64,000 nt of DNA from Loktanella salsilacus. Lineage in GTDB: Bacteria > Pseudomonadota > Alphaproteobacteria > Rhodobacterales > Rhodobacteraceae. Positions 7,436-21,159 of the stretch are shown here, in pieces. Under the pieces are notes generated by a model. The model saw only the letters and a list, made by a program, of their open reading frames with translations. It was not told the DNA's origin and did no database searches. The position numbers were made by a program, and so were the translations under genes. The stretch lies in contig NZ_FOTF01000001.1 in the NCBI RefSeq assembly GCF_900114485.1, forward strand, positions 124,001 through 188,000, given 5' to 3'. Each line of letters starts with the position of its first letter. The first letter of the stretch is position 1.

Positions 7436-8293
7436 ATGAATGATATGACAGAGCAATCCCCCGTGACCGAAGCCACCGCAAAAGCCGTCCCCGCCCTGCC
7501 CGACGCGCAGACCGTCACCGCCGTGACCCATTACACGGACCGGCTGTTTTCGTTCCGCGTGACGCGTCCCGCGTCCCTGCGGTTCCGGTCTGGCGAATTC
7601 GTCATGATCGGGCTGATGGGCGATCCGCACCCCGAAACGGGCAAGCAAAAGCCGCTGCTGCGCGCCTATTCTATTGCCTCGCCAAGCTGGGACGAAGAGC
7701 TGGAGTTCTATTCGATCAAGGTCGAAGACGGCCCGCTGACGTCCAAGCTACAGCACATCGAAGTCGGCGATCAGATCATCCTTAAGCCCAAGCCCGTTGG
7801 CACGCTGGTGCATGACGCCCTGCTGCCCGGCAAGCGGATCTACTTCTTTTCCACTGGCACCGGCTTTGCGCCATTTGCGTCCCTGCTGCGCGAGCCAGAC
7901 ACCTATGAGAACTACGACGAGGTCATCGTCACCCATACCTGCCGCGATGTGGCAGAGCTGACGTACGGCGCGAACCTGATTGAAAGCATCAAGCAAGACG
8001 AGATGATGATCGAACTGCTGGGTGAAGAGAACCTAGCCAAGATCCGCTACTACCCCACCACCACGCGCGAGAAGAGCGCCAAGATGGGCCGGATCACCAC
8101 GCTGATCGAAAACGGCGAGTTGTTCACCGATCTCGGCGTGCCGCCGCTGAACCCCGAAACCGACCGCGCCATGGTATGCGGCAGCCTTGCGTTCAACAAA
8201 GACATCGCCGCCTTGATGGAGGCCGCTGGCCTGCACGAGGGTGCCAATTCCGAGCCGGGCGAGTTCGTGATCGAGAAAGCCTTCGTCGGCTAA
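7436..8293 (+). CDS. fpr: Ferredoxin--NADP+ reductase
   Basis: FAD enzyme of 285 residues that exchanges electrons between NADPH and ferredoxin. The FAD-binding barrel carries RAYSIASPS, the pyrophosphate and NADP region GTGFAPFASLLREPDTYE, then VTHTCRDVAEL and MVCGSLAFNKD, and the protein ends in FVIEKAFVG. It is about 25 residues longer at the N-terminus than the E. coli enzyme. It lies 52 bases after the sulfur operon and is followed by a hairpin, so it may be co-transcribed and could supply reduced ferredoxin to CysI (inference). Confidence 0.93.
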   Translation: MNDMTEQSPVTEATAKAVPALPDAQTVTAVTHYTDRLFSFRVTRPASLRFRSGEFVMIGLMGDPHPETGKQKPLLRAYSIASPSWDEELEFYSIKVEDGPLTSKLQHIEVGDQIILKPKPVGTLVHDALLPGKRIYFFSTGTGFAPFASLLREPDTYENYDEVIVTHTCRDVAELTYGANLIESIKQDEMMIELLGEENLAKIRYYPTTTREKSAKMGRITTLIENGELFTDLGVPPLNPETDRAMVCGSLAFNKDIAALMEAAGLHEGANSEPGEFVIEKAFVG

Positions 8294-8315
8294 CGATTTA
8301 CGACTGATGATTTAC

Positions 8316-8343
8316 AAGGGCGCGTCCTATTGGGCGCGCCTTT
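8316..8343 (+). terminator. Terminator-like hairpin after fpr
   Basis: AAGGGCGCG and CGCGCCTTT pair with one bulged G around a 10-base loop and run into TTTCTT. Confidence 0.6.
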
Positions 8344-8507
8344 CTTCGTTCAGATTATGCCGAACTGCCGGGCGGGCGGTGGAACGTTTAGTCCCGTCGC
8401 GTCGCTGACCATAATCGCCTCTATTCCGTAGGCTTTCTGCGACGCAGCGGATGGCTGCAATCTGCTGGTTACCAAACATTTGGCCAGCGGCAGACTTCGC
8501 ATGCGAA

Positions 8508-8521
8508 CTGATCTGGATCAG
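8508..8521 (+). promoter_or_regulatory. FNR/FnrL-like box upstream of yihY
   Basis: CTGATCTGGATCAG is a perfect 14-bp palindrome fitting TTGAT-N4-ATCAA with C/G at the ends. A TAACAT hexamer at 8544-8549 would place a start near 8556, about 41.5 bases from the box centre, the classic class II activator geometry. Binding is inferred. Confidence 0.5.
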
Positions 8522-8699
8522 CGCGCGCATTGGCCGATCTGTTTAACATTGCTCAAAGATCGGCGGTATTTGCGATGTTTTGCGCGTCAGCTGGCTGGAA
8601 TTCATCGGCCCAGCACCGAAAGCCTAAGACGACCAAAGCATGAAGCACTTACGCCATTGGCCCGTGAGGGCGCGCTATTTTCTGACGTGAGGACCGCCT

Positions 8700-9647
8700 A
8701 TGACACGCCGCCGCGATGCCGCAACGCCAGCAGACATACCGGTTGTGGGCTGGAAGGACGTGGCATTTCGCGTCAAGGATGAAATCGCCAAGGACCGCGT
8801 CGGGCTGCTTGCTGCCGGGGTGGCGTTCTATGGCTTGCTGGCCCTGTTTCCGGCCATCACCGCCGCGATCGCCATCAGCGGCCTGTTGATAGAGCCAAGC
8901 CGCATCCTCGCGCAACTTAGCAGCCTTTCGGGGCTTATCCCCGAGGACGTGATCGCAATCGTGACCAGACAGGCCACGGCTGTTGCGAATTCCCGCCAAG
9001 GCAGCTTGGGCTTTGCTGCCATCCTTGGACTGCTGATTGCATTTTATTCCGCATCCAAGGGCATGGCCAGCCTGATGCAAGGCCTCAATATCGCTTATGA
9101 CGAACAGGAAACGCGCGGGTTCACCGCGCGTTTGTTGGTCACGTCCGCTTTAACGCTGCTGTTGATTGCCGGGCTTGTCTGCGGGCTTGGCGCGACGCTG
9201 GCCCTGCCCGTCATTCTGGCCTTCGTGGATATGGGACCCGCCGTCGCGATCCTATTGACGGCGGCCTTTTGGGCCGGATTGATCGCACTGACCATTGCCG
9301 GGCTTTGCGTGCTTTATCGCTTTGCACCGTCACGCGAGACGCCAGAGTGGAAATGGACATCGGTCGGCGCAGTCGCAGGATGCCTTGTCTGGATCGCGGC
9401 ATCGGCCAGCTTTGCGTTCTTCGTCAGCAATTTCAGTTACTACAACCAAAGCTTTGGGACTTTGGCCGGCGTTGTCGTGCTGCTGATGTGGTTCTGGATT
9501 TCAGCCTACATCGTCCTCATGGGGGCGGAATTGAATGCCGAACTCGAGGCGCAAACGCGCGCCGACACGGCGGCCGGGGACGACAAAGCGACGGCTTCGC
9601 AGGACGCCGCAAAACCGGGCAATCCCCATGCGACGGGCGGCACATGA
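8700..9647 (+). CDS. yihY: YihY/BrkB family inner-membrane protein
   Basis: A 315-residue polytopic protein with about six hydrophobic segments after a 30-residue polar N-terminus. Family marks are DRVGLLAAGVAFYGLLALFP, the FYSASKGMASLMQGLNIAYDE region and, near the C-terminus, LWFWISAYIVLMGAELNAELE-like sequence (here LLMWFWISAYIVLMGAELN). The tail is polar, with acidic residues and Ala. Function in the family is unsettled; the old RNase BN assignment has been withdrawn. The ATG at 8700 has a GTGAGGA site. It is the first gene of a three-gene (+) run behind a possible FNR-type promoter. Confidence 0.92.
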   Translation: MTRRRDAATPADIPVVGWKDVAFRVKDEIAKDRVGLLAAGVAFYGLLALFPAITAAIAISGLLIEPSRILAQLSSLSGLIPEDVIAIVTRQATAVANSRQGSLGFAAILGLLIAFYSASKGMASLMQGLNIAYDEQETRGFTARLLVTSALTLLLIAGLVCGLGATLALPVILAFVDMGPAVAILLTAAFWAGLIALTIAGLCVLYRFAPSRETPEWKWTSVGAVAGCLVWIAASASFAFFVSNFSYYNQSFGTLAGVVVLLMWFWISAYIVLMGAELNAELEAQTRADTAAGDDKATASQDAAKPGNPHATGGT

Positions 9648-9683
9648 CAGTCGCATTATTCTGGAAGTCGAAGGAGATGTCTT

Positions 9684-10421
9684 ATGTGCTGGAGCGGTGA
9701 AGCCTCGGCGGCGCTGGCAATCGTTGGTATTTCAACCACCGTCTACGCCGCATACAAGAAAGAACCGGCGCCTTTGTGGATGGCTCTTGGCTATTTCTCG
9801 TCAATGGAGCTTTTGCAGGCCTTCACTTATTCGGTGATTGACCAATGCGCACTGCCATCAAATCAGGTCGCCACCCTGCTTAGCTATCTGCACATCGTAT
9901 TTCAGCCCTTCTTCATCAACATGCTGTCGATGTATTTCATTCCAGATGCTGTGCGGGTCAAGATTCAGTGGCCGGTTTATACAGTCTGTTTTGCATCGGC
10001 CATCGTCATGCTTTTGCAGCTTTATCCGTTCGCATGGGCAGGATTATGTCCACTGGGTGAGGTGCTGTGCGCAGAACGCCTTTGTTCAGTGTCCGGTAAT
10101 TGGCACATCGCTTGGGAGGTGCCGACGAACGGCATGCTGAACTTTATAACGGTTGATTCCTGGGCCTCTTTTTTGACCGCTTATCCCACTTATTTCATCG
10201 CAGCGTTTGCAATGCCGCTTCTTTACGGGTCATGGCGCATCACGATCTATCACTTCCTGATCGGACCACAGTTGGCCGTTCTGCTGACCAACGACCCTAA
10301 CGAGGTGGCCGCTATCTGGTGCCTGCTATCAATCGGCATCCTGCTGCTTGTCGTGAAAACACCCATAAGACGCTTCATGTTTGTGAAATCTTGGTTGCTA
10401 TGGCCGAAACAAAGCGCCTGA
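9684..10421 (+). CDS. Integral membrane protein, DUF5765-like
   Basis: A 245-residue membrane protein starting MCWSGEASAALAIVGI behind a strong GAAGGAGA site, with about seven hydrophobic stretches spread over its whole length. It contains several cysteines and ends in a short basic tail. I match it tentatively to the DUF5765 family because of the MCWSGEAS start; no function is known to me. It lies 36 bases after yihY and is probably co-transcribed with it. Confidence 0.75.
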   Translation: MCWSGEASAALAIVGISTTVYAAYKKEPAPLWMALGYFSSMELLQAFTYSVIDQCALPSNQVATLLSYLHIVFQPFFINMLSMYFIPDAVRVKIQWPVYTVCFASAIVMLLQLYPFAWAGLCPLGEVLCAERLCSVSGNWHIAWEVPTNGMLNFITVDSWASFLTAYPTYFIAAFAMPLLYGSWRITIYHFLIGPQLAVLLTNDPNEVAAIWCLLSIGILLLVVKTPIRRFMFVKSWLLWPKQSA

Positions 10422-10747
10422 AGCCAAAGCGCTTTGTGATCAGGCCATACCTTTGGACCGCAAAAGCGGCCCGTCCTACGGATGCGCCGCGCTAAGGTCA
10501 GATTCATTCCGATTTTAAGTGCCCACGCTAACCTGCATCGGTGCGCAAGACACTGGGAACGGGCAAGCTGCGCAGGACAATCCACACAATTGGCCTGCGC
10601 ATCTGAAGGAAACCACCGCGTTCGGGTGCCAAAGCAATTTGGCACCCGTCATGAAATGCCATCCTTCACACAGCGCCCGGCCCGCAAAAATCTGACCAAG
10701 TGAGCACCGCGCAGTCCGCCCATCCCCGCCCATTCAAAGAGGTTTCT
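10422..10747. other. Intergenic region before the esterase gene
   Basis: 326 bases with no supportable gene. The one striking element is a perfect 11-bp inverted repeat with a GCAA loop at 10623-10648. Two short open frames on opposite strands look random. Confidence 0.55.
10623..10648. repeat. Perfect inverted repeat (11-bp arms, GCAA loop)
   Basis: CGGGTGCCAAA, loop GCAA, TTTGGCACCCG. No T-run follows, so it is not a standard terminator. It may be an operator or an RNA hairpin with a GNRA-type loop in the 5' region of the esterase gene, 99 bases before its ATG. Confidence 0.6.
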
Positions 10748-11698
10748 ATGTCAATATTTTCCAATACCAGCGATCGCCTTTCCGTCCTTGCAAACTTCGG
10801 GACTGACCCAGGTTCGCTAAGTGCCGATATCTACGTGCCAAAAAACTTCCCGAAAAACGGACCGCTTGTGGTGGTGCTGCATGGCAGCACCCAGTCACCA
10901 GATGACTACGATATCGGATCCGGCTGGTCCACGCTCGCCGAGGAATGCGGGATCGCGCTGCTGTTTCCGGGGCAAAGACTGACCAACAACATGATCGGCA
11001 GCTTTAACTGGTTCGAGACAGGCGACAGCCAGCGCGGCGAAGGCGAGCCTTTGTCTATTCGTCAAATGATCGGCCAAGTCGTCGATGATCATGCCGTCGA
11101 CCCGTCGCGAGTCTTTATCACGGGGATGTCGTCGGGCGGTGCCATGACATCGGTGATGCTGGCCACTTATCCAGAGGTCTTCGCCGGAGGGGCAATCATC
11201 GCAGGGATCGCCTTTGGCAGCGCGACCAACATGATGGAGGCGGTCATGCGCATGAATGGTTTCGGAAGCCCATCGGACAGCCGCCTAGATGCGCTTGTCC
11301 AAGGCGCGACGGACTTTGCCGGGCCTTGGCCGACGATCTCGGTCTGGCAAGGCGATAGCGATACGACCGTCGCCAGTTCCAACGCCGCGTCCATCGTCGC
11401 GCAGTGGCAACAGATTCACAAAGTCGCAGACAAGCCGACCCGTGTTGAGACCGTTGACGGCTTTCCGCGCAAGGTCTGGTGCGACGCGGACGGGCGCGTG
11501 GTGATCGAGGAATTTATTATCACATCGATGGGCCACGGCACGCCGATCAGCGCAGATGGCGTTGAGGGGTTGGGGGAAGAAGGCAAATACATGCTAGAGG
11601 TTGGCATCTCTTCCACCCGCCACATCGCTGATTTCTGGGGTTTGACGCAAGGCGGCAGCGCAGCCACGGACACCCCCGAAGTGGACGACGCGGCTTAG
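10748..11698 (+). CDS. PHB-depolymerase-type esterase (alpha/beta hydrolase)
   Basis: A 316-residue alpha/beta hydrolase of the polyhydroxybutyrate depolymerase/feruloyl esterase (LpqC-like) group. Visible are the oxyanion-side LVVVLHGSTQSPDDYD, the nucleophile elbow GMSSGGAM with its serine, and a C-terminal histidine in SMGHGTPI. No signal peptide is seen, so a cytoplasmic enzyme acting on a soluble or storage ester is likely; the substrate cannot be told. The ATG at 10748 follows AAAGAGG; a start at 10700 is less likely. It faces DUF2254 convergently across a 43-base inverted-repeat region. Confidence 0.85.
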   Translation: MSIFSNTSDRLSVLANFGTDPGSLSADIYVPKNFPKNGPLVVVLHGSTQSPDDYDIGSGWSTLAEECGIALLFPGQRLTNNMIGSFNWFETGDSQRGEGEPLSIRQMIGQVVDDHAVDPSRVFITGMSSGGAMTSVMLATYPEVFAGGAIIAGIAFGSATNMMEAVMRMNGFGSPSDSRLDALVQGATDFAGPWPTISVWQGDSDTTVASSNAASIVAQWQQIHKVADKPTRVETVDGFPRKVWCDADGRVVIEEFIITSMGHGTPISADGVEGLGEEGKYMLEVGISSTRHIADFWGLTQGGSAATDTPEVDDAA

Positions 11699-11711
11699 GC
11701 CTAGACCTTTG

Positions 11712-11754
11712 CCGGGCATGTTTCCGCGTCCAAAGGGCGCGCGGGCATGCCCGG
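11712..11754. terminator. Inverted repeat between convergent genes, possible bidirectional terminator
   Basis: CCGGGCATG (11712-11720) and CATGCCCGG (11746-11754) form a perfect 9-bp stem with a 25-base loop between the esterase stop and the DUF2254 stop. There is no T-tract, so the terminator role is tentative. Confidence 0.45.
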
Positions 11755-11756
11755 TG

Positions 11757-13079
11757 TCAGGGCTGCGCGCTGTCCGGCTGTAAATCCGCAAGCGTTTTGC
11801 GGTCAAAGGCATGAACTGACATCTTTTGGCCTTCTCGCACCACCTGTTCGCGCAGCCCTGCAATCGCGACACGCGCCGACAGGGGGAAAGACTTTTCTAA
11901 CATCTCAAGGGTTTCACAAAGGCGGGTGACGACATCCGCGTCGGCCATGCCATAGCGTGCAACGGACGCGAAGGCCCGGCAGCTGACCTCCCCCAGATTT
12001 ATGACGTCGGTCAGGATACGCAGCTCGCCTTTATGGTCGAACCGCATGGGCGACGGAATGTCCCGGGTTGCCAATAGTTCAAAAACTTGTCCCAACCGGT
12101 CGATACAATAAAGCGCGGTCGTGGGATCGTTGATGCCGGGCGACAGGGACCGTTGCGCCAATTCCACGATGCGGCGGATGGCGAATTCCAGATCCTGATA
12201 GGATGTCCGGTCGCGTCCAATGACGACCGCACCGCGCAAATCCTCGTCGATTTTGTCCGACACCCGCGCCTTTGGATAGGCTGTCATCACACTCGTGCCT
12301 TTGGTCACGAACGCGCCAGGGCGCGCTGCGATGCGCAGAACAAGATCATGTTTCACAGCGATCCGCATCAGCACGTCGCCGCCGATGCTTTGGATATACC
12401 CATCTGAATCTGCGGATATTTGTTTGCTTTGCGCATCGAAATCGTCGGGCAAAGTCTGCTTAACCGCATCGGCTGGCGGCCCGTCACCCAATCGTTCGGG
12501 AAAGACATGATCGACGGCGGCGCAGCCTTCGACGGCAAGTTTTTCCAGCAGTGTTTCGACGCGGATCGACGTCGCGATGTGATGGATAAAGTAAAGCAGA
12601 ACAGCCACGCTTGCCGCGGCCATCAGCACGCCAAAGGCCACCGCAATATGCGGGACAAAGCTGGACCCTTCGGTGCCGCGCACGGACCGCAGCACGAATA
12701 GGCAATACAGAAACGTGGCGATGAAGGTCCCCAACACGATCTGGTTGCTGCGATCCCGCATGAAGTTGCCCAATGTCCGCGGGCCGAACTGGGATGACGC
12801 CAGCTGCAAAGACAGCATCGTGATTGAAAAGATCAAGCTGGCCACCGTGATCATGGAACTGGCGATCACCGACAGCATCGCGCGGGCCCCTTCGGGTCCG
12901 AACGTATAAAGCGCGCCGGGATTGTCGTTCTGGGCGACGTCGCGCAGGACATCCACCTCGATCAGCACAAAGGATAGAACGACGGCAAAGACCGCCATGA
13001 CAGCGGGCAAGAACCAAAAGCTGGCGTTAAGCCGTCCCCAGAATGCCGTGACACGCGTAAGTGAAAATGACGCTGCCAT
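11757..13079 (-). CDS. DUF2254 family membrane protein
   Basis: A 440-residue inner-membrane protein: four hydrophobic segments in the first 170 residues (AVMAVFAVVLSFVLI; SMITVASLIFSITML; FIATFLYCLFV; VAFGVLMAAASVAVLLYFI) and a large soluble C-terminal part. Conserved DUF2254 marks are SSQFGPRTLGNFMRD and SPGINDPTTALYCIDRLG. The start was set at 13079 because AAGGAG precedes it; a 47-residue upstream extension lacks conservation. Function unknown. It is divergent from gadB across 480 bases containing two FNR-like boxes, so the two may share control. Confidence 0.9.
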   Translation of the reverse strand: MAASFSLTRVTAFWGRLNASFWFLPAVMAVFAVVLSFVLIEVDVLRDVAQNDNPGALYTFGPEGARAMLSVIASSMITVASLIFSITMLSLQLASSQFGPRTLGNFMRDRSNQIVLGTFIATFLYCLFVLRSVRGTEGSSFVPHIAVAFGVLMAAASVAVLLYFIHHIATSIRVETLLEKLAVEGCAAVDHVFPERLGDGPPADAVKQTLPDDFDAQSKQISADSDGYIQSIGGDVLMRIAVKHDLVLRIAARPGAFVTKGTSVMTAYPKARVSDKIDEDLRGAVVIGRDRTSYQDLEFAIRRIVELAQRSLSPGINDPTTALYCIDRLGQVFELLATRDIPSPMRFDHKGELRILTDVINLGEVSCRAFASVARYGMADADVVTRLCETLEMLEKSFPLSARVAIAGLREQVVREGQKMSVHAFDRKTLADLQPDSAQP

Positions 13080-13279
13080 ACGCAACTCCTTGTTTTTAGA
13101 CGGTCTATAGGATCGAAAAGCAGCAAGTTTTAGAGGCGGCCTTGGCCCTGCCCCAGCGCGGCCCACCAAGACCGCAAATCTGGTTTCGCATCGATCGCGG
13201 CGTTGTGCCGCCATCATCAATGACTTTGGCGCATCCGGTTCCTGACGCGATTACGGTATCATGCCGGACAGGGACCACA

Positions 13280-13293
13280 CTGATTTCGATCAA
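13280..13293. promoter_or_regulatory. FNR/FnrL-like box, DUF2254-proximal
   Basis: CTGATTTCGATCAA fits TTGAT-N4-ATCAA with one end base changed. It could serve DUF2254 (201 bases away) or gadB. No clear -10 lies at the class II distance on either side. Confidence 0.42.
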
Positions 13294-13362
13294 GCCGCCC
13301 CCGCTATCATTGTGTCAGGGCGGCGTTTTCTGGATCAGCGGCTGTGGGCGTCCGAACCAAGA

Positions 13363-13376
13363 CTGATCTCGATCAA
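13363..13376. promoter_or_regulatory. FNR/FnrL-like box, gadB-proximal
   Basis: CTGATCTCGATCAA fits the FNR consensus with one end base changed and repeats the context of the box at 13280 (ACTGATYTCGATCAAG). A weak -10-like GTAACT lies at 13398-13403, close to the class II position for transcription toward gadB. Confidence 0.48.
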
Positions 13377-13559
13377 GGCCGGGTCAGTCATCCTGTCGTA
13401 ACTCACTTGAATATGCGGCGGCGCCTGTGCCGGCTTCGACAATCCATTGCCTGCCTTGGCATGGGACACGAACGGCCCACGCAGGACCACCGGATTATCT
13501 GCTGGCATGATGTCCAATCATCGCGCTGGCGTTTCTTCGCCCTTCAAAGGAGCAATTCA

Positions 13560-14942
13560 ATGCCTATTCACCGCGTGGATTCGACCGACACATCCAGTCT
13601 TTTGGATATTTACGCAACCGAGGCATCGCAAAACAGCCTGCCAAAGTATCGGATACCGGACGGGCGCACCGAACCGCGTGCGGCCTACGCCCTGATCCGC
13701 GACGAGCTTTTGCTAGACGGGAATGCGCGCCAGAACCTTGCGACGTTCTGCACAACTTGGGTCGAGGATGAGGTCAAGGCGCTGATGGCGGACGCCATCG
13801 ACAAGAACATGATCGACAAGGACGAATACCCGCAAACCGCCGAAATAGAAAAGCGCTGCGTGCATATCCTTGCTGACCTTTGGCATGCCGAAAGATCGCG
13901 CGAAACGATAGGCTGCTCTACCACCGGGTCGAGCGAGGCTGCTATGCTTGGCGGGTTGGCGTTCAAGTGGAAATGGCGCAAGCGCCGGGAGGCCGAAGGC
14001 AAGGACGCGAGCAAACCCAACATCGTGACCGGCCCCGTGCAAATCTGCTGGAAGAAATTCGCGCGCTACTTCGACGTCGAAATCCGCGAGGTACCGCTAG
14101 AAGGTGACGCGCTTGGGCTAAAGCCTGAGGACCTGCGCAAATATTGCGACGAAAACACAATTGGCGTTGTGGCCACGCTGGGCGTCACCTTTACTGGCGT
14201 TTATGAGCCTGTCGCGGCCTTAGCGGCTGAACTTGATGCGATGCAGCGCGACCTTGGGCTGGATATTCCTATTCACGTCGATGCGGCCTCTGGCGGGTTT
14301 ATCGCGCCGTTCATTCAAAAAGACATCGTCTGGGATTTCAAACTGGACCGGGTCCGGTCGATCAACGCGTCGGGCCACAAATACGGTCTGGCACCGCTGG
14401 GCGTGGGCTGGGTGATCTGGGCGACGCAGGACGATCTGCCCGAAGAACTGATCTTTTATGTCGACTACCTTGGCGGCAACATGCCCACCTTTGCGCTGAA
14501 CTTTTCCCGCCCGGGCGGCGAGATTATCGCCCAATATTACAATTTCCTGCGCCTTGGCATGGAGGGATACACCGCCGTTCAGCAGGCCTGTTCGGACACG
14601 GCCCAATGGCTGGGGGAACAGATGGCGGCAATGGATTGCATCGAAATGGTCTATGACGGCCACGGCGGCATTCCGGCCGTGGCGTACAAACTGACGGACG
14701 CGGATCACGGCTTTACGCTGTATGATCTGTCGGACCGGGTCCGCATGGGCGGATGGCAGATCGCGTCCTATCCGCTGCCGATGAACCGCAAGGACACCGT
14801 CGTTCAGCGCATCCTGATCCGGCACGGGGTCAGCCGCGATCTGGCGCAACTGCTGCTGGACGACATCAAGCGTGCCATCGCGCATCTAAAGGAAAACCCG
14901 GTTCCGAACTCTACCGCGAAGCCCGGATTTCACCATGATTAA
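13560..14942 (+). CDS. gadB: Glutamate decarboxylase (PLP-dependent)
   Basis: Converts glutamate to GABA and CO2, consuming a proton. At 460 residues it is close to E. coli GadB and co-linear with it: DELLLDGNARQNLATFC near residue 42, GPVQICWKKFARYFDVEIRE, HVDAASGGF, and the cofactor lysine Lys274 in SINASGHKYG (Lys276 in E. coli). The C-terminus ends in FHHD, so a terminal histidine comparable to the pH-gating His465 of E. coli GadB may exist. The ATG at 13560 has an AAAGGAG site. It overlaps the antiporter gene by 8 bases, implying a coupled decarboxylase/antiporter pair. Two FNR-like boxes lie upstream. Confidence 0.96.
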   Translation: MPIHRVDSTDTSSLLDIYATEASQNSLPKYRIPDGRTEPRAAYALIRDELLLDGNARQNLATFCTTWVEDEVKALMADAIDKNMIDKDEYPQTAEIEKRCVHILADLWHAERSRETIGCSTTGSSEAAMLGGLAFKWKWRKRREAEGKDASKPNIVTGPVQICWKKFARYFDVEIREVPLEGDALGLKPEDLRKYCDENTIGVVATLGVTFTGVYEPVAALAAELDAMQRDLGLDIPIHVDAASGGFIAPFIQKDIVWDFKLDRVRSINASGHKYGLAPLGVGWVIWATQDDLPEELIFYVDYLGGNMPTFALNFSRPGGEIIAQYYNFLRLGMEGYTAVQQACSDTAQWLGEQMAAMDCIEMVYDGHGGIPAVAYKLTDADHGFTLYDLSDRVRMGGWQIASYPLPMNRKDTVVQRILIRHGVSRDLAQLLLDDIKRAIAHLKENPVPNSTAKPGFHHD

Positions 14943-16830
14943 TGCGAAAACTGATCGTAGGGTGATCCTGAAACGGGCCATCTGCGGTGCGGGCCTGCCG
15001 CTGATCCTGTCGGCCAGTGCGGCGGCGGCCCAAGACGCAGACACGGCGTCCGGCGGGGTCATCGGGCAGGTGTTCGATACGATAAAGCCGGTGACAGAGG
15101 CTGGCGTTCACGGCTTTTTCCAGCTTCTGGACAACCAGCCCATCGCCTTCATTCTGCTGTCGCTTGCGCTGGGAACGCTGATCGGAAAATTCAGCTTCAA
15201 GACTATCTCTCTGGGCTCAACCGCTGGCACGCTGCTGGTCGGGGTGTTGTTGTCGATGACCGCGCAAGCGGCCTATGACATCACCTATTCGATCCCCAGC
15301 ATCCTGTCGTCCTTCATGCTGCTTTTGTTCATGTATGCGCTGGGGCTTAAGGTCGGCCCGCAGTTCTTTTCCGGGCTGCGAAAGGGCGGCTTGGCGTTCC
15401 TTGTGATCGGTTTCACCGTCTGGATTCTGAACTGGGTCATCTGCTTTTTCGGGGCCAGTATGGCCGGGCTTGCACCGGGATATGCGACGGGTCTGATGTC
15501 GGGCAGCTATACGATCACAGCGATCTTGGGCGTCGGTCAGGATGCCCTGTCCAGCGGTGCCTATGTTCCGCCCGATGGCACCTCGGTCGAGCAGGTCGGG
15601 GCCAATATGGCCGCCGCCTATGCGATCAGCTATGTCCTATCGACCGTGCTGACCATTTTGCTGATCCGCTATCTTCCGCGCATGTTCGGCTATGACGCCA
15701 TCGCCGAGGCGAAGCAGGCCGAAGAAGATTTCAGCGGCGGCGCGAAAGACCCGGTGCCGGGTGCCCCCGGTGCGCTGACCATGGGCATGACATCCGTCGG
15801 CGTCCGCGCCTTTGCCGTTAGCCACAAGGATTTCATCGGGCGGACTCTGTCGCAACTGGCAGAGGACTTTCCTGCCGTGCCCATCCTACGCATCGTGCGG
15901 GACGGCACGATTTTGGACATGACCGACAATCCCGCCGTGCAGGAAAACGACATCGTCACGGTGCGCGCCGATGTCGAGGATCTGATGGGCAAAGAAATCA
16001 AGCTTATCGGCCCCGAATCAAGCAATCCGCTGGCCCGCAACGTCCCCATCGAGGTCGCCGATGTGCATGTGGGATCGCACAAAGTCTCGGGCAAAAGTCT
16101 GGCCGACTTTGGGGCGCATCTGTCGGGCGGCGTTACGGTGCAGGCACTGTTCCGCGCGGGCACAGAGCTGCCGCTGGGTCCCAAAACCGACGTTCGATTC
16201 GGTGACGTGCTGCGTCTGAACGGCCCTGATGTCGCCATTCAGCAGGCGGCAAAGCAACTGGGCGGCACCGCGATCCTTTTCACCATGAAGACAGAGGTCC
16301 TCTACCTCGCGCTGGCGATGTTGCTGGGGTATCTGGTCGGGATCATCTCGGTCACGATTTCGGGCATCCCCTTTGCGTTCGGCACCTCGGCTGGCGTGAT
16401 CATGGCGGGCGTGGGTGTCAGCTATTTGCGCAGCCGGAACCCTAGTTTTGGCGGTCCCGTCAATGAGGGCGCACGCAGCTTTCTGCAAGATTTTGGCCTG
16501 AACGCCTTTGTCGCCGTGCTGTCTGCCAACGTCGGTCCCAAGGTCATTTCGGCCTTGGGCGGTGATACGATCCTTTGGCTTGCGCTGATCGGCATTGCAG
16601 GGGCGCTGATCCCGCCGCTTGTCGCTTTTTGGGTCGGGATCAAGATCTTTGGTCTGAACGCGATCATCTCGGACGGGGCGGCGGCCGGTGGGCGCAATAG
16701 CACGCCCAGCCTGAACGCAATCATGGAAGAATCCCGCAGTTCCGTCGCCGCCGTGCCTTATCCGGTCAGCTACGCGTTCACGACCGTTCTGGCGTTGATC
16801 GGCGGATATTTTTCGATGATCCTGTCCTAG
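14935..16830 (+). CDS. AspT/YidE-YbjL family antiporter with RCK_C (TrkA-C) domains
   Basis: A 631-residue transporter of the aspartate:alanine exchanger superfamily: two membrane halves (about residues 75-260 and 455-631, five hydrophobic segments each) around a cytosolic pair of TrkA-C-like domains. Family motifs include LGLKVGPQFFSGLRKGG, GLMSGSYTITAILGVGQDAL and GRNSTPSLNAIMEESRSS. Unusually, it begins with an extra N-terminal segment resembling a signal peptide (ILKRAICGAG.. ending ASAAAAQDAD) before the first core helix. Overlap with gadB suggests glutamate/GABA exchange; amino-acid specificity is inferred only from this pairing. Confidence 0.9.
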   Translation: MINAKTDRRVILKRAICGAGLPLILSASAAAAQDADTASGGVIGQVFDTIKPVTEAGVHGFFQLLDNQPIAFILLSLALGTLIGKFSFKTISLGSTAGTLLVGVLLSMTAQAAYDITYSIPSILSSFMLLLFMYALGLKVGPQFFSGLRKGGLAFLVIGFTVWILNWVICFFGASMAGLAPGYATGLMSGSYTITAILGVGQDALSSGAYVPPDGTSVEQVGANMAAAYAISYVLSTVLTILLIRYLPRMFGYDAIAEAKQAEEDFSGGAKDPVPGAPGALTMGMTSVGVRAFAVSHKDFIGRTLSQLAEDFPAVPILRIVRDGTILDMTDNPAVQENDIVTVRADVEDLMGKEIKLIGPESSNPLARNVPIEVADVHVGSHKVSGKSLADFGAHLSGGVTVQALFRAGTELPLGPKTDVRFGDVLRLNGPDVAIQQAAKQLGGTAILFTMKTEVLYLALAMLLGYLVGIISVTISGIPFAFGTSAGVIMAGVGVSYLRSRNPSFGGPVNEGARSFLQDFGLNAFVAVLSANVGPKVISALGGDTILWLALIGIAGALIPPLVAFWVGIKIFGLNAIISDGAAAGGRNSTPSLNAIMEESRSSVAAVPYPVSYAFTTVLALIGGYFSMILS

Positions 16831-16838
16831 CGCCTTTG

Positions 16839-16865
16839 ACCCGTCGCCCTGTCCGGGCGGCGGGT
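16839..16865 (+). terminator. Hairpin after the antiporter gene
   Basis: ACCCGTCGCCC and GGGCGGCGGGT pair over 11 positions (one G-U) around TGTCC, nine bases after the stop. No T-run follows, so it may be an attenuator or a 3' stabiliser rather than a strict intrinsic terminator. Confidence 0.5.
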
Positions 16866-17053
16866 GCAATCACGCCGCGACCTTTCAAATGAAAGGAAGG
16901 ACCGTCAGCGTGATTAAATCGCGGTCAGGCGTAGGCACCCGGGCCATTTTGCTTGTATCAAAGGGCGAAGCCAATTGGTCCTGACACTGGGGCACCCCCG
17001 GATCAGCACCCGATAAAGAAACGCGTCTTGCACGAAGACCCCGCTTGAAAGCT

Positions 17054-18943
17054 ATGTCCCTGACCACGCCGCAGATCCTGATCTTCGCAATCCTCGTCGC
17101 TATGATGGGACTGTTCCTATGGGGACGGTTTCGCCACGACGTGGTCGCCCTCACGGCTCTTTTGGCCTGCGTGATCGCGGGGCTTGTTCCGTCCGGCGTG
17201 GCCTTTGCGGGCTTTGGCCATCCGGCGGTCATAACGGTGGCCTGTGTCCTTGTGCTTAGTCAGGGGCTGCGCAGCACCGGCGCGGTTGATTGGTTGGCGC
17301 GCAGCATTCTGCCACGCGATGCCGGACGGATCACAACCCTGCTGGCGTTGATCGGGCTGGGGGCCGCGCTGTCGGGCTTTATGAACAACGTGGGCGCGAT
17401 GGCGCTTTTGATGCCCATTGCCGTGCAATTGTCCGCCCGTTTAGATCTGGCACCGGGACAAATCCTGATGCCGCTGGCCTTTGGCACAATTTTGGGCGGC
17501 ATGACCACGCTGGTCGGCACGCCCCCCAACCTGATCGTTTCGGGATTTCGCGAAGAGGCCGGGCTGGGGCAATTTGCGATGTTCGACTTTGCGCCCGTCG
17601 GCATCGCGGTTGCGACCTTGGGCGTTCTTTTCGTCGCATTGATCGGTTGGCGTCTGGTACCTGCGCGCAAATCTGCCGCTGGCACAGGTTTCGACACTGG
17701 CACCTACCTGACCGAGGTCCGCGTCCCTGACGGTGGCAAGGCTGTCGGCCTGACCCTGCGCGATTTCGAGGCCGAAATCGAAGACAGCGGCGCACAGATT
17801 ATCGGCTTAGTGCGAAACGAAGTCCGACTGACCGCGCCCCATGGCTTGCGGCGGATCAAGGCGGGCGATGTGCTGGTGCTGCAGGCCGATGTTGACGCAC
17901 TGGCCGAAGCGCTGTCCGTCTTCGGCATTCAGCTTGAGGCGCAGAAATCAGCTGCCGATGAAAAAGACGCGCCGGCAGACGACGCGTCCGAAAAGGCACC
18001 GCATAAGGTGATGGCAGAAGCCGCCATCCGCACTGCTGAAAAAGTCGAGAAGACCGCCGAGAGCGATGAAAGCGACCAGCGTGACGAGGACATCGTGCTG
18101 CGCGAGCTTGCCATTTTGCCGGGTGCGACCATCGCCGGGCAATCAGCCAGCGACCTGCGCTTGCGCACGCGCTACGGGCTTAATCTGCTGGCCGTGTCCC
18201 GTGAAGGACAACAGCCGCAGGCACGGCTGCGCAAGCTAAAGCTGAAATCCGGCGATCTGCTGCTCATGCAGGGCCCGGCCGAGATGATGTCCGAATTCAT
18301 CAACGATACGGGCTGCGTCCCCCTCGGAGAGCGCGAGCTGCGCATCCCCGACAAACGCATGGCGATCATTGCGGGCGCGATCATGCTGGGTGCAATCGGC
18401 CTTGTTACGTTGGGCCTGCTGGCTGCCCCCGTGGCCTTTGCCCTTGGGGTTCTGGCCTCGATGGTGTTGCGAACGGTTCCGTTGCGGAAAATCTATACGA
18501 CGATTGACTGGCCGGTCATCGTGTTGCTGGCCGCACTGATCCCGGTTGCGGGCGCGATGCAGACGACCGGGGCCGCCGACCTGCTGGCGCGGTTTTTGGT
18601 CGAGACGATTGCGCAGAGCAACCCTATCGCAGCCCTGGCCGTGGTGCTGATCACCACCATGTTCCTGTCGGACGTCATGAACAACGCCGCCACCGCCGCC
18701 ATTCTGTGCCCCATCGCCCTTGGCATCGCCGCGACCCTTGGCGTCAATCCGGACAGTTTCCTGATGGCAGTGGCGATTGGCGCATCCTGCGCCTTTCTCA
18801 CGCCCATCGGCCATCAGAACAACACGCTAATCCTTGGCCCCGGTGGTTTCCGCTTTGGCGATTATTGGCGCCTGGGACTGCTGGTCGAGGCAATCGTCGT
18901 CGTTGTCAGCATACCGCTGTTGTTGATCGTCTGGCCCCTGTAG
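17054..18943 (+). CDS. SLC13/DASS-type anion permease with two RCK_C domains
   Basis: A 629-residue permease: N-terminal membrane half (LILMPLAFGTILGGMTTLVGTPPNLIV-type signature seen as GGMTTLVGTPPNLIVSGF), then two TrkA-C regulatory domains (about residues 225-300 and 355-425) separated by a charged Ala/Lys/Glu/Asp linker, then the second membrane half with VMNNAATAAILCPIALGIA and SCAFLTPIGHQNNTLI. This is the sodium/anion symporter organisation with RCK_C inserts (sulfate, dicarboxylate or similar). The ATG at 17054 was preferred over TTG at 17045; neither has a strong ribosome site. Small hairpins (CCTTTC-AAAT-GAAAGG at 16881) lie upstream. Substrate unknown. Confidence 0.9.
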   Translation: MSLTTPQILIFAILVAMMGLFLWGRFRHDVVALTALLACVIAGLVPSGVAFAGFGHPAVITVACVLVLSQGLRSTGAVDWLARSILPRDAGRITTLLALIGLGAALSGFMNNVGAMALLMPIAVQLSARLDLAPGQILMPLAFGTILGGMTTLVGTPPNLIVSGFREEAGLGQFAMFDFAPVGIAVATLGVLFVALIGWRLVPARKSAAGTGFDTGTYLTEVRVPDGGKAVGLTLRDFEAEIEDSGAQIIGLVRNEVRLTAPHGLRRIKAGDVLVLQADVDALAEALSVFGIQLEAQKSAADEKDAPADDASEKAPHKVMAEAAIRTAEKVEKTAESDESDQRDEDIVLRELAILPGATIAGQSASDLRLRTRYGLNLLAVSREGQQPQARLRKLKLKSGDLLLMQGPAEMMSEFINDTGCVPLGERELRIPDKRMAIIAGAIMLGAIGLVTLGLLAAPVAFALGVLASMVLRTVPLRKIYTTIDWPVIVLLAALIPVAGAMQTTGAADLLARFLVETIAQSNPIAALAVVLITTMFLSDVMNNAATAAILCPIALGIAATLGVNPDSFLMAVAIGASCAFLTPIGHQNNTLILGPGGFRFGDYWRLGLLVEAIVVVVSIPLLLIVWPL

Positions 18944-19252
18944 GCCGCGCTGTCGTCAAACGCAGGCAGTCGATGTTTTGGCGCGTCGCTTTCAAAAAGC
19001 CCCCTCGCTTGACAACTGCGACCCTTTGGCCGGCGTCCCGGCAGAGCATGGCGATCATTGCGGACACCATCATGCTGGGTGCAATCGGCCTCGTTGCGCT
19101 GGGCCTGCTGGCTGGCCAAGGCGCACCCCATCGGGGTGCACCTTTTAACTTATGTCCAAAACATGTTACGCTTGCCTTGAAATGTCGTAGATCGCAGGCA
19201 ATCTATCGGCGACACTAAACAAACCACTTTTTGACCGTAAGTTTATTATAAG
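18944..19252. other. Intergenic region with transporter remnant, start of AT-rich segment
   Basis: 309 bases. The first part carries a short degenerate copy of the upstream permease (19048-19113). From about 19135 base composition shifts to AT-rich, leading into the YrbL-like gene with a TTGACC and TTTATTATA promoter-like stretch just before it. Confidence 0.6.
19048..19113 (+). pseudogene. Remnant of an SLC13-type permease gene (66-bp match)
   Basis: These 66 bases match 18359-18424 inside the permease with six mismatches by my count, encoding MAIIADTIMLGAIGLVALGLLAG versus MAIIAGAIMLGAIGLVTLGLLAA. The surroundings do not continue the match. It is either a decayed second permease gene or a local duplication. 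Confidence 0.65.
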
Positions 19253-19903
19253 ATGAAAACCGCACCCGTGATTTCCGTATCCCATCTAAATTGGATTTCA
19301 AAGGGCTACCAACGGCTTGTTTTCATTCACCCAAATGACGACAAAAAAATTTTAAAAGTTTCTTATAACGGTGAAATGACCGATAAGCTGCTGCGAAATG
19401 CGCCTATCGCTGATAGAAGTAACAACCGCCATGTATCCCGTGAACATCATGTTTACAAAAAAAACACGCGGCTTTTAGCAATGCATCCATTTGATGCACC
19501 CATCCCCCATTTCTTTGGCACGATTGAAACCGACATTGGAAATGCCGATGTATACGAAGGCTTGTTTCGCCAAGATCGTAGCAAACTTGGCTTAACGCTA
19601 GAACAAGTCATCCTACGGGATTTAATGGGACGTAAAACACTCGCCGACCTGAATTCCTTTGTCGCACGGCTTGATAGCTGGAACATTCCAGTCACAGACC
19701 TTAATGCGAAAAATATTGCATATGGCTTTCGTGGAAATAAGCGCGTTTTTGTTTTAGTTGATGGATTTGGAGATTACCGCAGATTGCCTTTGGCATCATG
19801 GTCTCGGCGCATAAGACTCCAGCGCACGTCGATGGCCTATAGTGAAATTGCGAACCGCCTAGGTTTTGTTTGGGAAAGTAACGCACGTCTCTTTCGCTTT
19901 TGA
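19253..19903 (+). CDS. YrbL-like protein (PhoP-regulated network family)
   Basis: A 216-residue cytosolic protein in a clearly AT-richer stretch (runs such as AAAAAAATTTTAAAA) unlike every neighbour. It resembles YrbL: ISKGYQRLVFIHPNDDKKILKV near the start (glycine-rich-loop and lysine region of a kinase-like fold), SREHHVY, VTDLNAKNIAYG (catalytic-loop-like) and VFVLVDGFGD (DFG-like). The YrbL family has a kinase-like fold, is PhoP-linked in enterobacteria and often sits near envelope polysaccharide genes elsewhere. Its biochemical role is unknown. Composition and isolation point to horizontal acquisition. A perfect terminator follows. Confidence 0.8.
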   Translation: MKTAPVISVSHLNWISKGYQRLVFIHPNDDKKILKVSYNGEMTDKLLRNAPIADRSNNRHVSREHHVYKKNTRLLAMHPFDAPIPHFFGTIETDIGNADVYEGLFRQDRSKLGLTLEQVILRDLMGRKTLADLNSFVARLDSWNIPVTDLNAKNIAYGFRGNKRVFVLVDGFGDYRRLPLASWSRRIRLQRTSMAYSEIANRLGFVWESNARLFRF

Positions 19904-19952
19904 TAGCGCGACCTCCGGCCAGCTCTATACAATTGAATTATCTCTTAAAACA

Positions 19953-19985
19953 AAAAGGGCCGCGCCATCATGGCGCGGCCCTTTT
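19953..19985. terminator. Bidirectional intrinsic terminator
   Basis: AAAAGGGCCGCGCCA, loop TCA, TGGCGCGGCCCTTTT is a perfect 15-bp stem with A and T tails, placed between two convergent genes and usable from both sides. Confidence 0.9.
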
Positions 19986-20004
19986 GGGTTCGCTTATGCG
20001 CGGG

Positions 20005-20979
20005 TTACAGACCCAGCGCTTCGCGCACGCGGGTCAAGGTGGCGGTCAGCAGTTCAGGGTTGTTCTGCGCGCCCTTGATTGCAGCGGTCAGCGTGGTTTT
20101 CTGCACCATCGACAGATCGCTCTCGTTCAGCCGTTCGATGACCGCGTCAGCGTCAAAGCCTTCTGGGGTCAGCAGATCGGCCAGCGGCGCATTCGCCTCT
20201 GGCGCGGCACCGGGCGTGACAGTGCCGTCGGCTTCCACAGTGGCATCGATGGCCGCGCCATCTGTGGGGGCCTCTGTGACTGTTTTTTCTGCAACTGGCG
20301 CTTCAGCAACTGGCGCTGTCATTGCTTCTGCCGCATCGGTGGCCGCGTCTTGGGCCGCGTCGCCTGCGTCTTGGATCATCGCAGCGGCGGCGTCACTCGC
20401 CTCTGTCGCCATTGCGCCTGCGGTTGCAGCGGCGTCGCCTGCAGCGGCTTCGACTTCGGCAGCTGCATCAGCGGCGGCGTCTTGCGCGGTGGCGGCAGCG
20501 CTGGCGGCCTCGGCGACGGCGGCAGTTGTTGCTTCGTCAGCGGTGGCTTCCATTTGATCAGCAGCGGTTTCGGCCTCGGTCACAGCGGTATCAGCAGCAT
20601 CGGCGGCAGCATCAGCGGCATCAGTCAACGCATCGCCTGTCGCAGTTGCAGCTTCATCAGCAGCGGCTGTCGCGGCGTCCGCTGCATCATTTGCGGCTTC
20701 GGCTGCGTCAGCGGCAGCCTCGTCCGCTGCAGTTGCAGTGTCATCTGCTGCGCCAGTCACAGCGTCGGCGGCATCGCCAGCGGCGTCGCCAATTGCTGCG
20801 GCTGCGCCTTCGGCAGCAGCGCCGACGGCAGCGGCCCCTTCGGTCAATGCATCGCCTGCGGCAGCGGCATCAGGCACATCCGTGCCCACGACAGCCTGCG
20901 GGTCTTGGCCCTTGACGAAATATTCATAGCCGAAAAAGCCCAAAATGGCTGCAATGACGATGATCACGATGGCGCGCAT
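20005..20979 (-). CDS. Membrane-anchored Ala-rich repeat protein
   Basis: A 324-residue protein with one N-terminal membrane segment (IVIIVIAAILGFFGYEYF), then about 200 residues of alanine with regularly placed Asp, Glu and Thr (AADAA, EAAAD), a likely long amphipathic or coiled rod resembling LEA/apolipoprotein-like sequence. It ends in a more complex C-terminal domain (about 265-324: LADLLTPEGFDADAVIERLN then TLTRVREALGL). Function not recognised. A periplasmic spacer or membrane-surface protein is plausible. The start Met is preceded by AAGGATTTT. It is convergent with the YrbL-like gene and divergent from infC. Confidence 0.8.
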   Translation of the reverse strand: MRAIVIIVIAAILGFFGYEYFVKGQDPQAVVGTDVPDAAAAGDALTEGAAAVGAAAEGAAAAIGDAAGDAADAVTGAADDTATAADEAAADAAEAANDAADAATAAADEAATATGDALTDAADAAADAADTAVTEAETAADQMEATADEATTAAVAEAASAAATAQDAAADAAAEVEAAAGDAAATAGAMATEASDAAAAMIQDAGDAAQDAATDAAEAMTAPVAEAPVAEKTVTEAPTDGAAIDATVEADGTVTPGAAPEANAPLADLLTPEGFDADAVIERLNESDLSMVQKTTLTAAIKGAQNNPELLTATLTRVREALGL

Positions 20980-21159
20980 GGCAAAATCCTTCTAGTTTCG
21001 CGGCAAGAATGGCCGCATTCCCCTGTCAGATGCGGGGCGCGCGGCCTTGCGTCAAGGTGAACTAAACCAAATCAAGCTCATTCTTGCCGTTTCACGCCGC
21101 TTTGCGCCTTGAAGCATAGGGCGCAGAGGATTAGGTTACGGCCACCCCCTTAAATGACT

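Follow-up and report, generated by a model that had tools for sequence, protein, structure and literature searches.

We propose that in Loktanella salsilacus, the glutamate decarboxylase gene gadB and the gene that overlaps its end, which encodes an antiporter of the AAEx/AspT family, form a module for the exchange of glutamate and gamma-aminobutyrate (GABA), and that this module is controlled by FnrL or by a protein with the same binding site. Both genes lie in a 64,000-nucleotide stretch of the genome (hereafter, the window; positions are in Table 1). That the two genes belong together is well supported by comparisons of loci, and that they exchange glutamate for GABA is probable. Control of gadB by FnrL in this strain, as a lineage-specific trait, is plausible, and we lean towards it with less assurance. 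For both parts together, we put the probability at about 0.5. (All of these odds are our judgement. Articles that are cited by PMC identifier are cited for excerpts of their text rather than for the whole.)

Glutamate decarboxylase and its antiporter partner

GadB passes the NCBIfam model TIGR01788 with 625 bits (the cut-off is 380.4), and the E. coli enzymes GadA and GadB are its best-matching solved structures. The pyridoxal phosphate (PLP)-lysine motif is kept: SINASGHKYGLAPLG aligns to SISASGHKFGLAPLG of E. coli glutamate decarboxylase (GAD). The antiporter passes the Pfam models PF06826 (Asp-Al_Ex, in two stretches) and TrkA_C (in one stretch between the halves), and solved AspT chains match it in both halves (E ~ 1e-24 by phmmer, in two stretches). 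It falls under the cut-off for the AspT equivalog (347 bits versus 546.95 for TIGR03802), so the first-pass annotation of this DNA was right to call it a member of the AspT family, and plain "AspT" is not a suitable name. The 8-base overlap that was noted then is exact, with the stop of gadB at 14942 and the ATG of the antiporter at 14935. The PF06826 gene is downstream of gadB and a DUF2254 gene is upstream; no GadC-type (APC) exchanger adjoins gadB, and GadC was not searched for elsewhere in the genome. By eye, the antiporters of the Rhodobacterales and Leucothrix members have an N-terminal extension that resembles a signal peptide, and the Psychrobacter antiporter has none.

The evidence for the pairing comes mainly from the neighbors of related antiporters. 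Across 48 distinct open reading frames (ORFs) of the AspT family, the partner within 700 bp was GadB for 12, the aspartate decarboxylase AspD for 16, an ornithine/lysine/arginine-type (OKR-type) decarboxylase for 6, and both AspD and an OKR-type enzyme for 1. The other 13 had no partner, which is due in part to short flanks, as many of the 48 loci have only 1.5 kb. The 12 GadB-linked antiporters are 49.7-100% identical to the window's antiporter, and those linked to AspD or OKR-type enzymes are 25.6-31.9% identical. None of the 12 has AspD within 700 bp, and none of the antiporters linked to AspD or OKR-type enzymes has GadB. In the examined loci overall, antiporters that are at least 45% identical are nearly always by GadB; at 34% identity or less, the partner was AspD, an OKR-type enzyme, or none seen, and never GadB. 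In family f203 of the same phylum, 32 of 296 genomes have the antiporter (at 46-50% identity). We surveyed partners at 19 newly fetched loci among these 32 carriers: GadB of at least 58% identity adjoins the antiporter in 17 of them, a 42% relative adjoins it in 1, and there is none in the stretch in 1.

Trees agree with this division. In a maximum-likelihood tree, the window's antiporter belongs to a clade of 14 rows (100/100) that is apart from the AspD-linked rows, albeit with a long-branch warning. The groups in the tree of GadB match those of the antiporter tree (window/Yoonia/Marivivens, G074/G664, the two Psychrobacter, and G345/G260), several of them with low support. Two results support the pairing of GAD with an AspT-type exchanger, as first suggested for this pair: it is conserved across many loci, and the antiporters involved have a clade to themselves. 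The OKR-linked antiporters do not form one clade: L049 is among the AspD-linked rows, and L052 is on a long branch near the GadB clade. Pairs of an AspT-family antiporter and a large OKR-type decarboxylase are found at L049 (2185-6704), L052, and L090-L093 (including Phyllobacterium), and apparently constitute a third type of decarboxylase/AAEx module. As a marker for the clade, we also considered the charge at the position of R76 of AspT, which is Lys in 11 of 12 GadB-linked antiporters. It varies among those with AspD or OKR-type partners and is Arg in the solved AspT, so we consider it suggestive only.

There are two exceptions to the pairing. The clade member in G582 (57% identical) has no GadB in the stretch and adjoins a gene of the asparaginase/glutaminase family, which counts against a fixed partnership with GAD. 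In G260 (54%), GadB is about 6 kb from the antiporter. Both loci have other unusual contents. In G582, the GadB-clade antiporter and the asparaginase/glutaminase-family gene are followed by AspD and a canonical AspT, so that two AAEx modules are adjacent (L086, 1371-8883). In G260, a cyanophycin-synthetase-like gene lies a few kb from the antiporter and GadB (L044, 1396-5983), and by eye, cyanophycinase-like and isoaspartyl-peptidase-like genes are nearby.

The pair is rare and patchy, and it crosses classes. Within the genus, 2 of 9 genomes carry the antiporter (E ≤ 1e-50), as do 5 of 394 genomes of the family (E ≤ 1e-60, own genome included) and 5 of 385 genomes in a sample of the class (own included; two of the five are only 30-32% identical). 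A scan with exact peptide patterns, which detects close relatives only, gave Yoonia vestfoldensis, Marivivens, Puniceibacterium antarcticum, Leucothrix arctica, and two Psychrobacter as named carriers. Transposases of the IS110 type lie upstream in L041 and L042, and there is a phage-type integrase in L043; together with the patchy spread, this fits horizontal transfer. We rejected the idea that plasmids carry the clade, as all 10 plasmid matches were AspT-family proteins with 32% identity or less.

In the proposed mechanism, an AAEx/AspT-type exchanger would replace the usual GadC exchanger of the GAD module. Glu(1-) would enter, GadB would use one cytoplasmic proton to form GABA and CO2, and GABA(0) would leave via the same antiporter; each turn would remove one cytoplasmic proton and move one negative charge inward. 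Because GadB is the near-constant partner of the clade, we expect the exchanger to move the substrate and the product of GAD. AspT catalyzes electrogenic Asp(1-)/Ala(0) exchange and, with AspD, gives a proton motive force (PMC9508256); by analogy, Glu(1-)/GABA(0) exchange would likewise move net charge. Antiporters that exchange Glu and GABA electrogenically, and in this way give a proton motive force, had been reported before, by Higuchi et al. 1997 (as cited in PMC4934118). The cycle that the first-pass annotation put forward is therefore less new than it was taken to be there; what is new is the AspT-type partner and the link to oxygen.

GadB would be closed at neutral cytoplasmic pH and opened by acidification. 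The penultimate residue is His in 11 of 13 GadB tails (the exceptions are Marivivens L008, with FHRD, and L043, with GYSH), and the window's FHHD corresponds to the FKHT of E. coli (...SFKHT) via the aligned FHHT of Psychrobacter. The GAD of lactic acid bacteria becomes more active at neutral pH when its C-terminus is truncated (PMC7761890). By analogy, the conserved C-terminal His suggests that the activity is acid-gated. An acid-gated GadB would generate little proton motive force at neutral pH, which counts against the energy-yielding side of the cycle; we infer that pH homeostasis at low oxygen is likelier than steady energy generation. The module would then be mainly a safety valve for pH and membrane potential, and most useful when respiration fails.

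Alternatively, the cycle might run at neutral pH as a standing energy generator that mainly yields proton motive force, like AspD/AspT. The reported electrogenic exchange by AspT would fit, and so would the higher frequency of the N-ATPase in genomes with the clade antiporter (see below), but the GadB tail resembles the one by which the GAD of lactic acid bacteria is made less active at higher pH, and we think that a standing generator is unlikely. More unlikely still, the antiporter might have other substrates (Asp/Ala, or export of succinate or glutamate), with only a regulatory link to gadB. The AAEx family does include a glutamate exporter and succinate exporters (PMC9527358), and the clade member in G582 (L051/L086), which is without GadB, lies by an asparaginase/glutaminase-family gene that bears a signal sequence. 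However, the 48 ORFs are split by partner, 18 of 20 f203 loci have a GadB neighbor of at least 58% identity, and there are matching groups in the two trees. We still favor the exchange of glutamate for GABA.

FNR-type boxes upstream of gadB

Two near-identical boxes, with centers 83 bp apart, lie between DUF2254 and gadB, just as first described, and both fit the FnrL consensus (T/C/A)TGA-N6-TCAA. (For gadB, we prefer the start at ATG 13560 over GTG 13344 from the ORF list, which would engulf box 2, because homologues and the preceding AAAGGAG favor ATG 13560.) With up to 2 mismatches, the pattern of the box pair occurs 6 times in the window versus 0.68 in shuffles, and 0 of 100 shuffles reach 6. 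The general FNR pattern TTGATNNNNATCAA shows no window-wide excess: there are 3 matches with 1 mismatch versus 1.03 in shuffles, and 9 of 100 shuffles reach 3. Two of those three matches are the gadB boxes. Given the 180 sites (up to 1 mismatch) in the 4.13 Mb genome, 0.021 would be expected in the 480-bp region, and two were seen (P ~ 2e-4, for a place that was chosen on account of the boxes).

The genome encodes FnrL (388.5 bits against NF045989; the cut-off is 300). Perfect TTGATN4ATCAA boxes are found at genes near fnrL (a hemN-like radical-SAM gene, COX1/ccoN, and FixG), and another is at the start of the pta-ackA pair. The variant CTGATNNNNATCAA (CTGATN4ATCAA) has 25 copies in the genome, which by our reading are 10 intergenic and 15 in genes; several of the intergenic sites are overlapped by short ORFs that we judged to be spurious. 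The variant occurs twice before gadB. The other intergenic sites are before a DcuC/YfcC-type carrier together with arginine deiminase, ornithine transcarbamylase, and a carbamate-kinase-like gene (arcDABC); before a heavy-metal ATPase and a second COX1/cco operon; before the N-ATPase; before DnaJ, HlyD-type, SHOCT, and DCC1-like genes; and at a divergent MCRA/DUF308 pair. In chromatin immunoprecipitation (ChIP) of FnrL from R. capsulatus, the first base is T in 37%, C in 34%, and A in 24% of sites, and the ccoN site ATGATGTCGATCAA has the same TCGATCAA half as the gadB boxes (PMC4634722). So the C at position 1 of the gadB boxes is normal for FnrL. We propose that FnrL, or a protein with the same site, would act on the gadB module through the two boxes, as part of a set with the arginine deiminase pathway, the N-ATPase, cbb3-type oxidases, and pta-ackA.

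Among the relatives, we looked for a box with up to 1 mismatch within 600 bp of the start of gadB, and found one in 4 of 8 alphaproteobacterial loci: the window (two boxes), L042 (at -134.5), L085 (-130.5), and L043 (-520.5). L044 was left out of this count, as some 6 kb separate its GadB from the antiporter and the region upstream is incomplete, and duplicate loci were counted once (G1150, L134, duplicates Puniceibacterium L009; G291, L013 and L118, duplicates Marivivens L008). Five boxes in 8 loci compares to an expectation of 0.29 (P = 1.3e-5; the 183 kb of background double-counts about 10 kb, as L046 overlaps the window). For the relatives alone, there are 3 boxes in 7 loci (P = 0.002), or 2 in 7 without L043 (P = 0.027). 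The boxes in L042 and L085 are in the same aligned place, and their flanks have diverged. ARAGORN did not call the putative tRNA remnant that we saw by eye in L043, where it would lie between the box and gadB.

Several observations weigh against control by FnrL. The gadB boxes score 15.75 and 16.62, at the low edge of the reference sites (15.4-24.2), and among 15 chance sites within genes, which score 7.4-21.1, 5 score at least as high as box 1 and 4 at least as high as box 2. The weight matrix was built from 12 sites of this genome, each left out in turn, and several of these were found by seeking this variant, so the scores are partly circular. We conclude that the gadB boxes are acceptable and not strong, and that the matrix by itself is no proof. 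We saw no sigma-70-like promoter in 13080-13600. By eye, a TATCAT starts 18.5 bp past the center of box 1, which is too close for the geometry of an FNR class II promoter. The relative from the same genus, G001 (L041), has no box upstream of gadB. In the closest relatives, Yoonia vestfoldensis and Marivivens (90-92% identical), the boxes are 2.9-3.1 kb upstream, one good and one weak, and precede an array of a small hypothetical gene, a baeRF protein, and a cupin. Puniceibacterium L009 has only one box, at -769.5 and inside an upstream gene, and so disagrees with L042, which is from the same genus. As for the loci that were counted, the L043 box is 520 bp off and near the phage-type integrase, and one of the core bases of the L085 box is altered; with both of these boxes set aside, the count falls to 2 of 8 loci (P = 0.03). 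Farther away, a box (up to 1 mismatch, within 700 bp) is present in only 2 of the 19 f203 loci with GadB, and there is no box (up to 1 mismatch) at the Leucothrix locus or the two Psychrobacter loci.

These results leave the first-pass annotation's claim of FNR-type control in good standing within this genome, given the FnrL equivalog and the C-at-1 boxes before arcDABC, the second cco operon, and the N-ATPase, and in mixed standing as to conservation. It had held that a failure of the boxes to be conserved upstream of gadB in close relatives would speak against it: they are missing from the same-genus relative and displaced by 2.9-3.1 kb in the two closest, and they are nearer to gadB in three more distant relatives. 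The exchange module might operate without any oxygen control, with boxes that arose by chance or serve DUF2254, and gadB might instead respond to acid or growth phase, as the gad genes of E. coli do (they are induced by acid and in stationary phase; PMC7761890). The low scores, the absence or displacement of boxes in the closest relatives, and the lack of boxes at most loci outside the alphaproteobacteria would all be explained. However, two boxes in 480 bp are improbable by chance, and in the stretches examined, DUF2254 was not found around the pair in the alphaproteobacterial, Leucothrix, or Psychrobacter relatives, yet L042 and L085 have boxes near gadB. We take this explanation seriously and judge it rather improbable.

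It is also conceivable, and less probable again, that another Crp/Fnr protein reads the boxes, such as the regulator with an E..SR helix at C56 (L031) or an HVNR-type regulator. HTH_Crp_2 has 13 matches in the genome (8 above the cut-off), several of which are additional Crp/Fnr proteins. By eye, CTGATN4ATCAG palindromes precede HVNR-type regulators at two places: in G000, where the regulator is part of the N-ATPase/PhaC cluster (L079), and in G001, on the contig that carries gadB (L041). But the E..SR recognition helix, which goes with TTGAT half-sites, is found only in FnrL and L031 among the Crp/Fnr proteins that we read. Perfect boxes lie by fnrL, the hemN-like gene, and the cco genes, and the FnrL of R. 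capsulatus does bind sites with C at position 1. FnrL remains our preferred regulator for gadB.

The N-ATPase, and further features of the window

The N-ATPase of this genome was identified by AtpR, which is over its cut-off; the beta subunit is under the cut-off of TIGR03305. N-ATPase operons serve well to check the C-at-1 variant. In 6 of 9 alphaproteobacterial ones (L079, L163-L165, L167, and L170), atpD is preceded, at a distance of 65-85 bp, by a box with up to 2 mismatches, and five of the six boxes begin with C; the other three operons have no box. This suggests that the N-ATPase is under FNR-type control. Of 8 alphaproteobacterial genomes with the clade antiporter, 5 have AtpR, versus 4 of 49 without it (Fisher P = 0.0014, ignoring phylogeny and genome size; the 49 were taken from the start of the genus and family samples). 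Both G1150 and G074, which are of one genus, are within the 5 of 8; without same-genus repeats, the counts are roughly 4/7 versus 4/43 (P = 0.0085). In Leucothrix, an alternate F1F0 operon directly follows the pair, and the beta subunit encoded there passes TIGR03305. We view these results as hints, not more, of a joint ion and pH programme of the pair and the N-ATPase. At one of these N-ATPase loci (L079, G000 C62, 4455-16711), the operon is clustered with phaC and a Crp/Fnr regulator with an HVNR helix, and FNR-type boxes precede atpD, phaC, and the regulator.

A broader and more tentative scheme, which we rather doubt, has two parts that would have to hold jointly. The AAEx family would be modular, its clades going with particular PLP decarboxylases (AspD, GadB, and OKR-type) apart from some exceptions, and FnrL in oxygen-starved marine alphaproteobacteria would switch on the GadB module, the N-ATPase, and arginine deiminase as one anaerobic survival programme for pH and membrane potential.

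Table 1. Features of the window in and around the gadB/antiporter pair.
Feature	Positions	Strand	Details
FNR-type palindrome CTGATCTGGATCAG	8508..8521	.	precedes the BrkB gene (8700) by about 180 bp; matrix score 18.91, the highest in the window
DUF2254 membrane protein gene	11757..13079	-	PF10011, 403 bits; divergent, shares its upstream region with gadB
FNR/FnrL-type box 1, CTGATTTCGATCAA	13280..13293	.	center at -273.5 from the gadB ATG; matrix score 15.75
FNR/FnrL-type box 2, CTGATCTCGATCAA	13363..13376	.	center at -190.5 from the gadB ATG; matrix score 16.62
gadB, PLP-dependent glutamate decarboxylase	13560..14942	+	460 amino acids; C-terminus ...PGFHHD; TIGR01788, PF00282
AAEx/AspT-family antiporter, proposed Glu/GABA exchanger	14935..16830	+	631 amino acids; PF06826, TrkA_C
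CitMHS/DASS-type transporter with TrkA_C domains	17045..18943	+	PF03600; third gene in line

A CitMHS/DASS-type gene that is 86.5% identical to the third gene in line is also found behind the pair in Marivivens (L008, 8343-10214). G+C content is lower (~0.55-0.60, and up to 0.62 over 15-19 kb) across 8001-21000 of the window, which contains BrkB, DUF5765, polyhydroxybutyrate (PHB) depolymerase, DUF2254, gadB, the antiporter, CitMHS, and YrbL, and is flanked by house-keeping genes; this region may be an acquired island. A 324-amino-acid ORF at 20005-20979 (minus strand) is alanine-rich and of low complexity, with no match in Pfam. A search of 12900-17200 with Rfam found nothing at the gathering score.

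Comparison with known systems

If our proposal is correct, then this pair, which is scattered in marine Pseudomonadota, would give the glutamate decarboxylase acid system a second type of exchanger that is unrelated to the first. The pair also suggests that the decarboxylase partner and the antiporter clade change together, so that partners could provide substrate predictions for a poorly typed transporter family. If the link to FnrL is also true, then amino-acid decarboxylation is joined to oxygen limitation in bacteria that are usually seen as respirers. Among the articles listed in our searches for GAD with AspT/AAEx or with Rhodobacteraceae/FNR, none is about this pair, as judged by the title or the opening of the abstract. 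(According to an excerpt of PMC5442110, the organism described there is without GAD.)

The pair resembles AspD/AspT of Tetragenococcus halophilus (AAEx, TC 2.A.81) in that the transporter is of the same family, a PLP decarboxylase is its neighbor, and an acidic substrate would go in and a neutral product out. Unlike in that system, GAD replaces aspartate 4-decarboxylase, the antiporter is only ~26-31% identical to AspD-linked relatives and does not reach TIGR03802, and the Rhodobacterales and Leucothrix antiporters have the extra N-terminal extension. The resemblance to GadB/GadC of E. coli and lactic acid bacteria lies in a homologous GadB with the same C-terminal His and in the same proposed exchange. 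GadC is an APC-type exchanger, whereas the exchanger here is of the AAEx/AspT type, and control via FNR-type boxes is proposed. With Glu/GABA exchange in Lactobacillus (Higuchi et al. 1997, as cited in PMC4934118), the pair shares the proposed energy cycle. The exchanger of Lactobacillus is of the GadC type, and the one here is of the AspT type.

As for regulation, the closest parallel is the FnrL regulon of Rhodobacter, with which this genome shares an FnrL equivalog and boxes that fit the ChIP consensus. The FnrL papers that we searched, on R. capsulatus and D. shibae, do not use the term "glutamate decarboxylase" in their main texts, and gadB would be a new, lineage-specific member of that regulon.

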